Source of the DNA: an uncultured Bacteroidales bacterium
GTDB lineage: Bacteria; Bacteroidota; Bacteroidia; Bacteroidales; Muribaculaceae
Assembly: GCA_947173955.1 (NCBI GenBank)
Contig: CAMWHE010000003.1
Span: forward strand, 1 to 64,000
Length of the DNA stretch: 64,000 nucleotides
Reading direction: 5' to 3'
In this document: one piece after another, positions 4,888 to 56,481 of the stretch
Layout: each line of letters begins with the position of its first letter
Numbering within the stretch: position 1 is the stretch's first letter
Position numbers and translations under genes: made by a program
The notes under the pieces: model-generated
Told to the model about the DNA's origin: nothing
Database searches by the model: none
Seen by the model: the letters and a program-made list of their open reading frames with translations, nothing else

Positions 4888-4918
4888 TTTGTCAATTTGA
4901 ATTATATGTCTAACTTTG
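4888..4918 (+). promoter_or_regulatory. Promoter of AraC-type regulator
   Basis: TTTG (4888-4891), 19-nt spacer, TAACTTTG (4911-4918): a full match to the Bacteroidota -33/-7 consensus. The start codon is 24 nt downstream. Confidence 0.75.
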
Positions 4919-5924: not shown

Positions 5925-6311
5925 ATGAAAAAATTTATTCTGGCTGCATTTGTAGCTCTTATATCTATGACGGCCTGCGCACAGGACAATCATGTAAAGA
6001 CTCTCGGCGACAATAATTATCAGACACTGCTTGACAATCCGCAGAAGCCTCTCGTCATAGATTTCTCGGCGACGTGGTGCGGACCGTGCAAGATGTTCTC
6101 GCCGGTCTATCATGAAGTAGCCGCAGAAATGGCAGGAAAGGCCGATTTCTACAAGGTAGATGTCGACGAGTCGCCGCAGCTTGCCGCCGGCATGAGGATT
6201 CAGGCTGTGCCCACGATCATACTGATCAATCCGAAGACTGAAAAAGTCGATGTTGTCCAAGGGGTGGTCAGCAAGGAAGAATTTGTAAAACGCGTCAAGG
6301 CTATTTTGTAA
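5925..6311 (+). CDS. Thioredoxin-like lipoprotein
   Basis: 128-aa thioredoxin-fold protein with the classic WCGPCK active site (about residues 46-51) and the cis-Pro loop AVPTIILI. The N-terminus is a signal peptide ending in ISMTAC-AQD, with Cys at about residue 18 fitting a Bacteroidota lipobox, so it is probably an envelope-anchored disulfide reductase rather than a cytoplasmic thioredoxin. It lies 58 nt after the AraC gene on the same strand and is followed by a strong hairpin with a T-run. Confidence 0.9.
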   Translation: MKKFILAAFVALISMTACAQDNHVKTLGDNNYQTLLDNPQKPLVIDFSATWCGPCKMFSPVYHEVAAEMAGKADFYKVDVDESPQLAAGMRIQAVPTIILINPKTEKVDVVQGVVSKEEFVKRVKAIL

Positions 6312-6335
6312 CAAAGACAAAATTCCATATCTTTG
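6305..6335 (+). promoter_or_regulatory. Promoter-like pair overlapping the 3' end of the thioredoxin gene
   Basis: TTTG (6305-6308), 19-nt spacer, TATCTTTG (6328-6335) match the full Bacteroidota consensus. The TTTG overlaps the thioredoxin stop codon. Transcription would run into the hairpin at 6335-6374 or, by read-through, into the SpmAB gene. Confidence 0.5.
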
Positions 6336-8187: not shown

Positions 8188-10065
8188 ATGCGTTACAATT
8201 ACGATGTAATAGTCATAGGTGCCGGTCATGCCGGTTGCGAGGCGGCGAGTGCTGCCGCGCGTCTCGGCGCATCCACACTGCTCATCACGCATGATCTCGA
8301 CAAGATTGCCCAGATGAGCTGTAATCCTGCTGTTGGCGGCATTGCGAAAGGTCAGATAGTCAGAGAGATAGATGCGCTTGGAGGATTGATGGGCATTGTC
8401 ACCGACAGAGCTACCATCCAGTTCAGGATGCTCAACAGTTCCAAAGGACCGGCCATGTGGAGTCCGCGCGCGCAGTGCGACCGCATGAAATTTTCGGCCG
8501 AATGGCGCCGTATTCTTGAAAACACCCCGAATCTGTATCTATGGCAAGACTCTGTCACAGAGCTGATAATTGAAGATTCGGAAGTCCGCGGAGTCGTTAC
8601 CGGACTCGGATTGCGGTTCAAGGCTAAGAGTGTAGTCCTTACTGCCGGTACATTTCTCAACGGTATGATGCACTTCGGGCGCACGCAGCTGCCCGGCGGC
8701 CGTATATCTGAAGCAGCTTCCTACGGACTGACTGAGCAACTGAAGCAAATTGGTTTTATCGCTGACCGCATGAAGACCGGAACTCCTGTCAGAGTAGACG
8801 GCCGGTCAGTGAACTGGGAGCTGACGACTCGACAGGACGGCGATCCTAATACACATCACTTCTCATATCTCACGGATGTCAGAGCCGGTCTGAGACAGCT
8901 GCCCTGCCACATCGTTTACACTAATGAGCAGACGCATGATGTTCTCCGTCAGGGTCTGCCTGACTCTCCGCTCTACAACGGTCAGATCAAGAGTATCGGT
9001 CCGCGATATTGTCCGAGTATCGAGACAAAAATCGTGACCTTTGCCGACAAGACTTCCCATCAGCTGTTCCTCGAACCGGAAGGAACCGATACACAGGTGT
9101 ATTATCTCAACGGTTTTTCATCGTCACTTCCGATTGACATCCAGATACGCGCTCTGCAGACGATACCGGCATTTGAGAATATCCAGATATTCCGTCCCGG
9201 CTATGCCATCGAATATGACTTTTTCGATCCTACACAGCTCCATCATACTCTCGAGACGAAGCTCGTCGGCGGCCTTTATTTCGCCGGTCAGATCAATGGT
9301 ACGACAGGATATGAAGAAGCAGCGGGGCAGGGTCTTGTAGCCGGTGCCAATGCTGCAAGGCGTGCGCTGGGTCAGGATCAGTTTACGCTTACGCGCGATG
9401 CCGCATATATCGGTGTTCTTATCGATGACCTTGTAATCAAAGGGGTCGACGAGCCGTACCGTATGTTTACCTCGCGTGCGGAGTATCGTATTCTCCTGCG
9501 ACAGGACGACGCGGATATGCGTCTTACCCCTCTCGGATATTCGCTTGGTCTCGTCAGCGAGGAACGCTACAAGCTCATGCTTGAAAAGCGAAAATGGCGT
9601 GATGAACTGATCGACTTTGCCGGTCGCTTCAAGGTCAGGGCTGATAAAATCAATTCCTATCTTGAAGCTGCAGGAAGTTCGCCGCTGACAGATGGAATAC
9701 GTCTCCGCGACCTTATACTTCGTCCCGAGCTGTCGATTGAGGGGCTTGCCTCGGCTATAAGGCCGTTGGATGAATTTGTACGGACTATACCTGATGAGTT
9801 GAGGGCGGAGGTGGTAGAAGCAGCCCAGATTCTCATAAAATATAGTGGATATATCGACCGCGAACGCTTGATTGCTGATAAGATCAGACGCCTCGAGTCG
9901 GTCAATATCCGGAACAAATTCGACTACTCGTCGCTTAAGGGTCTCTCAACCGAGGCCCGTCAGAAGCTTGTCAAGATTAATCCCCGGACCATCGCCGAGG
10001 CATCACGCATACCCGGTGTGTCACCGAGTGATATCAATGTGTTGCTACTTCTTAGTGGTCGATAG
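8188..10065 (+). CDS. mnmG: tRNA uridine-5-carboxymethylaminomethyl modification enzyme MnmG
   Basis: 625-aa FAD-binding subunit of the MnmE-MnmG complex that modifies U34 of certain tRNAs. The FAD Rossmann motif is VIVIGAGHAGCEAA at about residues 6-19; other family signatures are NPAVGGIAKGQIVREIDALG and QFRMLNSSKGPAMWSPRAQC. Full length. It lies 9 nt after ybeY. The stop codon is followed within 2 nt by a parS-like palindrome, recalling the classic gidA-par neighbourhood near bacterial origins. Confidence 0.97.
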   Translation: MRYNYDVIVIGAGHAGCEAASAAARLGASTLLITHDLDKIAQMSCNPAVGGIAKGQIVREIDALGGLMGIVTDRATIQFRMLNSSKGPAMWSPRAQCDRMKFSAEWRRILENTPNLYLWQDSVTELIIEDSEVRGVVTGLGLRFKAKSVVLTAGTFLNGMMHFGRTQLPGGRISEAASYGLTEQLKQIGFIADRMKTGTPVRVDGRSVNWELTTRQDGDPNTHHFSYLTDVRAGLRQLPCHIVYTNEQTHDVLRQGLPDSPLYNGQIKSIGPRYCPSIETKIVTFADKTSHQLFLEPEGTDTQVYYLNGFSSSLPIDIQIRALQTIPAFENIQIFRPGYAIEYDFFDPTQLHHTLETKLVGGLYFAGQINGTTGYEEAAGQGLVAGANAARRALGQDQFTLTRDAAYIGVLIDDLVIKGVDEPYRMFTSRAEYRILLRQDDADMRLTPLGYSLGLVSEERYKLMLEKRKWRDELIDFAGRFKVRADKINSYLEAAGSSPLTDGIRLRDLILRPELSIEGLASAIRPLDEFVRTIPDELRAEVVEAAQILIKYSGYIDRERLIADKIRRLESVNIRNKFDYSSLKGLSTEARQKLVKINPRTIAEASRIPGVSPSDINVLLLLSGR

Positions 10066-10122: not shown

Positions 10123-10641
10123 ATGGAATACATCAAATCACGCATCCGCGATGTCGTTGACTTCCCCAAGAAAGGTATCGTGTTTAAAGATCTTACCACA
10201 GTCTTCAAGGATGCACGTGCTCTTCACATTATCGGCTGGGATCTCTCGCAGCTTTATCGCGACAAGGGTGTGACCAAGGTGGTGGGCATCGAGTCGCGCG
10301 GATTTATCGGCGGATCGATTCTCGCATTCGAACTGGGCGCAGGATTCGTCCCTGTGCGTAAGCCCGGCAAGCTTCCTGCGGACACCCTCAAAGCCACCTA
10401 TGCCAAGGAGTACGGCACGGATACGATCGAGATACACCGCGACGCCATCACTGAAGACGATATCGTAGTGCTTCACGATGACGTGCTGGCTACCGGTGGA
10501 ACAATGGCTGCCGCCTATGAGCTTGTAAAAAGCATGAATCCGAAAAAGATCTATATCAACTTCATCATCGAGCTGACCGCACTCAACGGCCGTTCGGCGC
10601 TTCCCGCCGAGGCGGAAGTGACCTCTCTGCTCAAATACTGA
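10123..10641 (+). CDS. apt: Adenine phosphoribosyltransferase
   Basis: 172-aa cytoplasmic purine-salvage enzyme converting adenine and PRPP to AMP. The PRPP-binding motif is VVLHDDVLATGGTMAAAYEL (about residues 120-139), with the substrate region VVGIESRGFIGGS upstream and the usual C-terminal length. It follows mnmG by 57 nt, with the parS-like site in the gap, and precedes uvrC by 91 nt. Confidence 0.96.
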   Translation: MEYIKSRIRDVVDFPKKGIVFKDLTTVFKDARALHIIGWDLSQLYRDKGVTKVVGIESRGFIGGSILAFELGAGFVPVRKPGKLPADTLKATYAKEYGTDTIEIHRDAITEDDIVVLHDDVLATGGTMAAAYELVKSMNPKKIYINFIIELTALNGRSALPAEAEVTSLLKY

Positions 10642-10732
10642 TAGCGTGCCGGGGCGGAGCGGGGTGTGAGCCTTGTTTGCGTCCACGGCCGGTAGCAGTG
10701 CGGTGATATTGCCGCGGACGATCTGATTTTCT

Positions 10733-54589: not shown

Positions 54590-55960
54590 ATGAAAGAGTT
54601 TACACAGGAATATCTCGAGAAGCTCCGCGACATCATCGCCTCGCGCGATGATAAGGCCGCGCTGGCCGAACTCGAGGATATGCACCCGGCCGACATCGCC
54701 GAGCTCTATCAGGAGCTCGACCTTGACGAGGCCGAGTATCTATATAAGTTGCTGACTGACGAGACGGCGGCTGATGTGCTCATGGAGCTCGACGAGGATG
54801 AACGCCGCAAGCTGCTCGCCGACATGCCGGCTGAGGATATCGCGCGCCAGATCGACTATCTGGACACTGACGAGGCTGTAGACCTCATCCAGGAACTCGA
54901 CGAGGAGGAGCGCGACGAGATCCTCTCCCACATCGACGACGTGGAGCAGGCAGGCGACATCATCGACCTGCTGAAATATGACGAGGACACGGCCGGCGGC
55001 CTTATGGGCACAGAGATGATCGTCGTCAACGAGAACTGGTCGATGCCGGAGTGTATCAAGCAGATGCGTATGCAGGCCGAGGAGATGGACGAGATATATT
55101 ACGTCTATGTCGTCGACAATGAGAACCGCCTGCGCGGCATCCTCCCGCTCAAGAAGCTGATCACCCACCCGTCGGTGTCGAAGATCAAGCATGTCATGGA
55201 GGAGGATCCCGTGGCTGTCAAGGCCGACACACCGATCGATGAGGTGGCCCTCGACTTTGAGAAATATGACCTTGTGGCGATGCCTGTGGTCGACTCCATC
55301 GGGCGTCTGCTCGGCCGTATCACGGTCGACGACGTCATGGACGAGGTACGTGAGTCGAGCGAGCGCGACTATCAGCTGGCATCAGGTCTGTCGAGCGACG
55401 TCGCGGCCGACGACACTGTCTTCGCTCAGACCAAGGCGCGTATCCCATGGCTGCTGATCGGCATAGCGAGCGGCATCCTGGCGTCGCTGATTCTGACCGG
55501 CTTCGAGAGTCAGCTTGAAGCCGTGACGGCGCTGGCCCTCTTCATCCCGATCATCGGCGGCACCGGCGGCAATGTCGGCGTGCAGGCGTCGGCTATCGTC
55601 GTGCAGGGTCTGGCTAACGGATCGCTGGATATCAAACAGTTCGGCTCTCAGCTGGCCAAGGAAGTGGTCATCGGACTGCTCAATGCCACCATCCTGAGTG
55701 CCGTCATATTCGTCTACAATCTCATAATGCTTCCCCATGACTTTGCCGTCACGATATCGGTAGCCGTGTCGTTGTGGGCCGTCGTGATGTTCGCCACCAT
55801 ACTCGGCACTGTCGTGCCGCTTACACTCGAGAAGCTGAAAATCAATCCGGCTCTTGCCACAGGCCCGTTTATCCAGATCTCCAACGACATCGTGGGTCTG
55901 ATACTCTATGTCAACATCGCAACCTGGTTCCTCAACCATCTGAGCGGTACCTCCCTCTGA
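54590..55960 (+). CDS. mgtE: MgtE-type magnesium transporter
   Basis: 456-aa Mg2+ channel/transporter. N-terminal cytosolic MgtE_N domain (ELEDMHPADIAELYQELD, repeated acidic helices), two CBS domains (~135-255), and five C-terminal membrane helices with the pore signature IPIIGGTGGNVGVQASAIVV. Acidic cytosolic domains gate the pore by Mg2+. Co-transcribed with ksgA; a terminator follows. Confidence 0.96.
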   Translation: MKEFTQEYLEKLRDIIASRDDKAALAELEDMHPADIAELYQELDLDEAEYLYKLLTDETAADVLMELDEDERRKLLADMPAEDIARQIDYLDTDEAVDLIQELDEEERDEILSHIDDVEQAGDIIDLLKYDEDTAGGLMGTEMIVVNENWSMPECIKQMRMQAEEMDEIYYVYVVDNENRLRGILPLKKLITHPSVSKIKHVMEEDPVAVKADTPIDEVALDFEKYDLVAMPVVDSIGRLLGRITVDDVMDEVRESSERDYQLASGLSSDVAADDTVFAQTKARIPWLLIGIASGILASLILTGFESQLEAVTALALFIPIIGGTGGNVGVQASAIVVQGLANGSLDIKQFGSQLAKEVVIGLLNATILSAVIFVYNLIMLPHDFAVTISVAVSLWAVVMFATILGTVVPLTLEKLKINPALATGPFIQISNDIVGLILYVNIATWFLNHLSGTSL

Positions 55961-55982: not shown

Positions 55983-56016
55983 AAGCCCGGGGCTGTGTGA
56001 GCTCCGGGCTTTTCTG
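55983..56016 (+). terminator. Terminator after mgtE
   Basis: AAGCCCGG...CCGGGCTTTT hairpin with T tail. The inverted form also ends in a T-rich stretch on the minus strand, so it could stop transcription from both sides. Confidence 0.8.
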
Positions 56017-56094
56017 TGATACTTTATCTTGATTTATCAGAAGTCAAGATCTAATTTAACGTGGGTTTTCTTATATCGAACTCACATTAATTAA

Positions 56095-56357
56095 TTCAAA
56101 AGGTGTGGAGACCTGTTTCGTTTTATCCTGACATTCAGGTCTTGGCCAACCCTAACACGAATAAAACAACGGCGCCCCACACCCATGCCATATGCAGTAA
56201 GCCGATCGGCTTGAACACATACGCATCAGATGCAGGTGCTATTGATTAATTATCTTCGTGTTTGATTCAGACGGCCAAGTTTGAATGTCAAAGACAATTT
56301 TCTAATAACACCTTATTCTAAAAATAAGATGGGCCGGGACTCTTCCGCAGCCCAATC
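56095..56357 (-). ncRNA. Putative structured non-coding RNA
   Basis: A minus-strand transcript of about 260 nt is predicted from the perfect promoter at 56363-56393. It folds well by eye: hairpin CTTATT/AATAAG (56312-56328), long-range stem GGTGTTATT/AATAGCACC (56304-56312 with 56235-56243), hairpin AAGCC-GATC-GGCTT, and a closing 3' stem GGTGTGG/CCACACC (56177-56183 with 56102-56108) enclosing AGACCTG, which can pair either with CAGGTCT or locally with TCAGG. TTTT follows the last stem. No tRNA-like end, RNase P or SRP core is visible. A 6S-like or Bacteroidales-1-like RNA is possible; identity unproven. Confidence 0.5.
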
Positions 56358-56362
56358 AGTTA

Positions 56363-56393
56363 CAAATTTATAAGAAATTTGGGGAAGTACAAA
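56363..56393 (-). promoter_or_regulatory. Promoter of the putative structured RNA
   Basis: Minus strand TTTG (56390-56393), 19-nt spacer, TAAATTTG (56363-56370): perfect consensus with no protein start nearby downstream. Confidence 0.7.
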
Positions 56394-56450: not shown

Positions 56451-56481
56451 TCGATGTGGTGTTAAGAGTATGTCTTGTGGA

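Follow-up and report, generated by a model that had tools for sequence, protein, structure and literature searches.

What lies between two genes that converge on an apparently empty gap in the 64,000-nucleotide stretch of Bacteroidales DNA analysed here (the window), and does it act on its own? The genes are pckA (58092–56482) and mgtE (54590–55960), and the minus strand of the gap between them is where a sequence-only reading had placed a regulatory RNA with its own promoter and no convincing protein. The site is as described: both genes converge on the element, the element contains no convincing open reading frame (ORF), and a Bacteroidetes-type promoter, TTTG-N19-TAAATTTG, matches exactly at 56393–56363 on the minus strand. 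The related motif TTTG-N19-TANNTTTG occurs three times in the window against 0.02 expected from shuffles. Its remaining two exact matches are on the plus strand, at 4888–4918 and 6305–6335. Clear terminator-like hairpins stand on either side of the element (behind pckA at 56452–56419, minus strand, and behind mgtE at 55984–56012, plus strand), so that it looks transcriptionally separate from both genes. Judged from the promoter, transcription is expected to start near 56358–56354, and the RNA would be about 260 nt long.

Fold of the RNA

The minus-strand RNA (56362–56095) has a minimum free energy (MFE) of −95.3 kcal/mol (z = −5.51), which none of 200 shuffles equals; the strong stems noticed in the sequence are therefore far beyond what shuffled sequences form. 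The plus strand scores well too (z = −4.33). The family of related copies described below shows G-U and A-C pairs in a ratio of 74:9 on the transcript strand, which rules out a functional plus strand and marks the RNA from the minus strand of the window as functional. The parts of the element are as follows.

56393–56390 and 56370–56363, minus strand: promoter parts TTTG and TAAATTTG with a 19-nt spacer, exact match
56331–56353, minus strand: 5′ hairpin P0, GGGCUG-CGGAAGAGUCCCG-GCCC, directly after the expected start and present in the MFE fold
56098–56316, minus strand: conserved core, 219 positions of covariance model R1 (175.3 bits; E = 2.6 × 10−38, R1 E-values being rough and the window sequence being 1 of the 17 from which R1 was built)
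56234–56313, minus strand: Domain I, the first stem-loop (P1, P2 and P3)
56313–56304 with 56243–56234, minus strand: stem P1, 97% paired (n = 17)
56297–56290 with 56257–56250, minus strand: stem P2, 97% paired (n = 17)
56285–56266, minus strand: apical hairpin P3, whose loop CUUGGCC (56279–56273) is the first kissing strand
56182–56227, minus strand: linker hairpin P4, variable in sequence, placed by eye in alignment A1 and from the MFE fold of the window
56102–56183, minus strand: Domain II (P6, P5 and P3′), 94–98% paired
56183–56175 with 56110–56102, minus strand: stem P6, conserved and covarying
56167–56159 with 56128–56120, minus strand: stem P5 of Domain II
56152–56136, minus strand: hairpin P3′ with the kissing loop GGCCAAG (56147–56141)
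56279–56273 with 56147–56141, minus strand: kissing loop PK1, CUUGGCC with GGCCAAG, 97.5% paired
56289–56283 with 56136–56130, minus strand: loop-loop helix PK2, GACAUUC with GAAUGUC, covarying
56262–56255 with 56161–56154, minus strand: loop-loop helix PK3, AACACGAA with UUCGUGUU, covarying
56107–56115, minus strand: P7 strand CAGGUCUCC, whose partner in relatives is the loop of hairpin P8, 20–45 nt downstream
56098–56101, minus strand: U-tract after P6, a terminator-like end, only UUUU in the window and longer in relatives
56067–56093, minus strand: transposon or MITE terminal repeat, whose sequence GTGAGTTCGATATAAG at 56070–56085 lies 12 nt past the 3′ end of the RNA

Three long-range helices (PK1, PK2 and PK3) join the two stem-loops, P1-P2-P3 and P6-P5-P3′, and a four-way junction without linkers is made by P2, PK2, P5 and PK3. 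The window copy retains intact its promoter, P0, P1–P6, the kissing loop and both loop-loop helices, PK2 and PK3; in relatives, hairpins with an AGAG-like loop stand at the place of P0, as judged by eye. The 7-bp closing stem picked out in the sequence-only reading, GGUGUGG/CCACACC (56183–56177 with 56108–56102), is both present and conserved. The same reading had proposed two mutually exclusive hairpins built on AGACCTG. The segments are there, namely AGACCTG (56142–56136), CAGGTCT (56115–56109) and a local TCAGG, but such pairing of at least 6 bp occurs in only 6 of 128 relatives and is not conserved, so the switch looks local.

Compensatory change and distribution

Comparison with relatives revealed massive compensatory change, which speaks decisively in favour of an RNA. 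In alignment A1 (17 copies), 95.9% of pair cells hold standard pairs and 22 pairs have changed on both sides, values that 0 of 500 shuffles reach; slid controls give 42–50% pairing. Tree-aware counts were made on a new MAFFT alignment of 127 sequences, with a minimum spanning tree to lessen the effect of relatedness. They give compensatory fractions of 0.27 for P1 (0.05 when slid), 0.45 for P2 (0.07) and 0.37 and 0.33 for the stems of Domain II (0.02 and 0.06). The three long-range helices are absent from R1, and the matches gathered with that model are thus a fair test of them. In relatives, CUUGGC/GCCAAG of PK1 is replaced by CUUCGC/GCGAAG and UUCUCGC/GCGAGAA, with 32 compensatory and 20 broken changes (slid, 1.5 and 45.8). 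PK2 scores 6.81 of 7 with true partners and 4.54 with shuffled ones (maximum 4.79), with 224 compensatory changes against 57 broken (slid controls, 15 against 214); the corresponding values for PK3 are 5.80 of 6 and 3.84 (maximum 4.04), with 166 against 49 (slid controls, 13 against 155). Because alignments A1 and A2 lean towards their own structures, the partner-shuffle and tree-aware tests matter most. On this comparative evidence the element is a structured RNA, intricately folded and conserved in Bacteroidales.

RNAalifold proposed a nested rod containing the same three central helices. The local stems P1, P2, P5 and P6 covary better, and the two-stem-loop form was kept as the main fold; the rod is a possible alternative state of the RNA.

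A BLASTN search that covered 60 relatives gave matches in 17 of 61 genomes, some of them to the transposon end only, and delimited the core to window positions 56317–56098. Searches with R1, in genome samples that were drawn and are not exhaustive, found the RNA in 182 of 397 genomes from the family of the window and in 43 of 393 from its order; the phylum sample (396 genomes) yielded nothing outside Bacteroidales, and within them only the window's genome and one other. Sixteen genomes have 2–10 R1 matches each, with more candidates scored, and a few weak matches among these reflect a true copy on the opposite strand. Screening with a DNA pattern extended the hosts to Phocaeicola vulgatus ATCC 8482, whose copy is L225, Bacteroides cellulosilyticus, B. 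salyersiae, Parabacteroides, Mediterranea, Alistipes and others, and R1 confirmed 34 of the 35 loci tested. A pattern match in Clostridium oryzae (L202) was not confirmed by R1 and is taken as chance. An origin as a phage or plasmid element was rejected: there was no match in phage records, and matches elsewhere were to one plasmid record and 8 viral contigs.

Genes behind the leader

In relatives the parts follow a fixed order: promoter, hairpin, core with its terminator-like stem and U-tract, hairpin P8 and start codon. A TAnnTTTG box lies at most 140 nt upstream of the core in 120 of 128 relatives (mostly 45–97 nt), at least six T are found in the nine nucleotides after P6 in 124 of 128 (mean 7.05 versus 3.03 further downstream), and the start codon is 46–62 nt past the core in most copies. 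The loop of P8 pairs back, with covariation, to bases adjoining P6, forming P7 (pairing score 16.2 versus 13.7 with shuffled partners, s.d. 0.24, maximum 14.58; n = 100 sequences). The family thus runs from a promoter to a co-directional start codon at conserved spacing, as a cis-regulatory mRNA leader does; the window copy has no ORF to supply the start codon. The regulatory RNA with its own promoter that had been read from the sequence stands as regards structure and promoter, but its relatives are mRNA leaders and not primarily stand-alone small RNAs.

Many Muribaculaceae copies (for example, L029, L043 and L046) carry a conserved TAGCCCCAC(C)AATAACATTTTTT stretch about 70–90 nt before the core, which replaces the usual −33 TTTG and whose complement lies in the leader itself, in its GGTGTTATTG and GTGGGGCTATTG segments. 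The sequence AATAACATTTT, with one mismatch allowed, was found in 30 of 128 relatives and in 0 shuffles.

No Rfam 15 family reached its gathering score in the window or, for the element, in the loci of 20 relatives, and a permissive Rfam search of 8 loci returned only a Bacteroidales-1 RNA upstream, one tRNA and chance matches. The families that the sequence-only reading wanted searched first (Bacteroidales-1, 6S and 6S-Flavo) thus give no match. A Bacteroidales-1 (6S-like) RNA is present separately at L008:177–365, just upstream of a leader copy. The Bacteroidales-1 and 6S RNAs (RF01693, RF01685 and RF00013) share with our family the order Bacteroidales, their size and a long, stem-rich form, and differ in that the family has no Rfam match to them and consists of multi-copy mRNA leaders. 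ROOL, GOLLD and OLE are large, ornate, stand-alone RNAs; the family resembles them in its large size for bacteria and its kissing loops, whereas it is attached to coding regions and is not matched to them in the Rfam scans. In the literature searched we found no mention of structured RNAs at these loci, although the element may already be listed as a candidate; the supplement of one study is stated in its article to hold 3161 candidate structured RNAs (PMC8040213). The family is absent from Rfam 15, and its novelty is relative to that release and the literature searched. It was found in about half of the genomes sampled from the window's family and occurs in human gut species such as Phocaeicola vulgatus, yet is not in Rfam, and would be among the larger undescribed classes of cis-regulatory RNA in gut bacteria.

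The downstream genes share no common pathway. Pfam matches for 88 downstream ORFs, which were called simply, include 15 LRR_5 (BspA-type) and 4 TerB-like proteins, the rest being scattered, with many singletons; lipoproteins are also among them, and low-GC arrays (GC 0.29–0.38) follow the leader in many loci. Anti-phage defence was rejected as the cargo, PADLOC matches being few and mostly weak. Upstream neighbours (n = 82 proteins scanned) are mostly ordinary genes, with 4 tyrosine recombinases and 3 RadC. Copies L002, L081, L108 and L109, two of which share one genome, lead a 70–78-aa helix-turn-helix-like protein and may form a regulator-linked subtype; in L108 and L109 the first loop of the leader bears an insert.

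A gene order that recurs in named Bacteroides and their relatives is DUF3871–RadC–195-aa tyrosine recombinase–leader–short co-oriented low-GC array; of 80 named loci, many of which are short, 18 have the recombinase close to the leader. As published, rAID arrays combine a tyrosine recombinase with short genes in one orientation and with conserved sequence motifs between genes, and the criterion for them is a tyrosine recombinase upstream of at least two co-directional genes of <41% GC (PMC12247911). Some relatives have this arrangement (L139, seven genes, GC 0.35; L231, four genes, 0.33; L206, two genes, 0.29), and the window copy does not. Because the recombinase and the short co-oriented low-GC genes fit the published description, we call such arrays rAID-like: in gene order and composition, some of those behind the leader in Bacteroides and Parabacteroides resemble anti-T6SS immunity arrays. 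The reference recombinase of rAID arrays is BF9343_RS08045, and the genes of such arrays neutralise T6SS effectors; here Imm71 gave one weak match in array genes, below Pfam's cut-off. The likeness lies in the position of the leader: in Bacteroides, Parabacteroides and relatives it has a tyrosine recombinase on one side and short, low-GC genes of one orientation on the other. The text of PMC12247911 names no structured RNA. In contrast to rAID arrays, most leader copies, including that of the window, lack a neighbouring recombinase and often stand before a single gene. With such a leader in front of rAID-like arrays and genes for surface proteins, it would become possible to test directly how interbacterial defence and adhesion are regulated in the gut.

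Seven pairs of loci have a common upstream flank, promoter and leader followed by unrelated genes from +40 to +64 nt after the core. Since the two loci of a pair agree through the leader and differ beyond it, genes have been exchanged right behind the leader, which suggests a way for acquired genes to fall under control immediately. Homologous recombination and a specific system are both compatible with these junctions. Identical-looking cores in different species of Parabacteroides, Bacteroides and Phocaeicola point to recent horizontal transfer; such cores precede the same cargo in L239, L245 and L175 and in L225 and L235, and different cargo in L195 and L238. A nine-gene co-oriented array (L155) contains a lipoprotein gene twice (9155–9454 and 10402–10701, 90% identical over 300 nt). 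In this array, the one examined, no repeated recombination site was found; a whole gene is repeated instead.

Probable attenuation, its alternatives and the window copy

The reading that we prefer, at a probability of roughly 0.5, is that the family is a transcription-attenuating 5′ leader RNA before accessory genes or arrays and that the window copy has lost its gene. Placement and fold suggest that the leaders probably decide whether transcription continues. Transcribed from a promoter of its own, the RNA would precede an accessory gene or an array of genes, its two stem-loops locked by the kissing loop and the two loop-loop helices, and P6 with the U-tract would form an intrinsic terminator shortly before the coding sequence. 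Under the influence of a signal, folding of the core would lead either to termination after P6, leaving the RNA of about 260 nt, or to read-through into the gene, after which P7/P8 would shape the region before the start codon. Attenuators have a terminator-like stem and U-tract in the leader, as found here, and P6 covaries. Pairing of A′ with B and of A with B′ (A and A′ being the 5′ and 3′ strands of P1/P2, and B and B′ those of P6/P5) would open the terminator, as in classical attenuators; compensatory fractions of 0.12 versus 0.06 slid for A′:B and 0.20 versus 0.03 slid for A:B′ leave a conserved alternative pairing weakly to moderately supported. Against attenuation count the structured loop of about 65 nt that P6 closes, unlike a compact terminator, and the window's own U-tract of only four U. 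The position of P7/P8 beyond the terminator points to a translational role as well.

Attenuating riboswitches and leaders are likewise 5′ leaders with a pseudoknotted domain and a terminator-like stem with U-tract before the coding region; here, in contrast, the downstream genes share no pathway and the antiterminator is weakly supported. The genes of a ligand's pathway, expected behind a metabolite riboswitch, were not found among the 88 downstream ORFs, and such varied cargo speaks for a general signal, or for an expression element independent of cargo, rather than for a narrow metabolite switch. A broader proposal, which we regard as speculative and rather unlikely, is a Bacteroidales-wide class of pseudoknotted sensor RNAs that would control a scattered regulon of exchangeable genes, including T6SS-immunity arrays, its 3′ end serving as a plug-in point for genes behind a ready-made promoter and switch.

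The varied cargo, often a low-GC array, is also what a cargo-agnostic element would show, and with the persistence of leader and upstream flank while genes change it fits a leader that does not switch at all and instead raises expression of the following gene, through termination-resistant polymerase, mRNA protection or help in starting translation. EAR and put RNAs are structured RNAs that precede operons of accessory genes or of genes gained by lateral transfer, and they make RNA polymerase resistant to termination (processive antitermination). The Rfam scans show no relation of the family to them, and the resemblance in setting stops at the conserved terminator-like end of the leader here; such a stem and U-tract would be odd in a purely positive element, and the placement of P7/P8 fits translation control too. 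We consider a non-switching leader improbable. Much further from our expectation is a platform for recombination at the DNA level, like integron attI/attC, at whose leader end the small tyrosine recombinase would swap cassettes. The seven pairs diverging from +40 to +64 nt, the recombinase in 18 of 80 named loci and 4 of 82 upstream neighbours, and the same-looking cores of L195 and L238 with different cargo would suit it; homologous recombination in conserved leaders would, however, give the same junctions. Most Muribaculaceae copies have no recombinase nearby, the window's genome gave no recombinase match (in a search that had no positive control), the closely packed array genes have no repeated sites between them, and only a transcript would account for the promoter, the U-tract and the spacing to the start codon.

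Attenuation of a following gene is no longer open to the window copy itself. Where relatives hold P8 and a start codon, it has a transposon end, and neither P8 nor an ORF was found downstream of its core; it is thus an orphaned leader. Its closest copy, in a genome of the same genus (G007; 86% identical over query positions 48–354), is a normal leader of a small helix-turn-helix-like gene in a different gene neighbourhood. A sister species has leader copies at different sites, and in no genome but this one was the element seen between pckA and mgtE, which gives no sign of selection for position. As its sequence stands, the window copy can produce no more than a short free RNA.

Whether that RNA would do anything divides two readings. 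A recently orphaned relic without function, which is compatible with the attenuating leader preferred for the family and to which we give somewhat less than even odds, accounts for the loss of hairpin and gene to a transposon end, the U-tract shortened to four U and the different sites in a sister species; the fully intact promoter and fold, including compensatory positions common to the sister copy, speak against it. That same preservation of the promoter and of all long-range helices after loss of the gene, on a minus strand whose only likely product is a short terminated RNA, would instead favour a stand-alone small RNA now acting in trans. We hold this to be quite unlikely, since it would rest on one case, the closest copy is an ordinary leader and the position between pckA and mgtE recurs in no second genome.

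The terminal repeat GTGAGTTCGATATAAG that adjoins the window copy has 7 exact and 16 near copies in the same genome, and many copies are at contig ends in a member of the same family (G016). A whole MITE of about 130 bp with two GTGAGTTCGATATAAG-type ends is present in L025.
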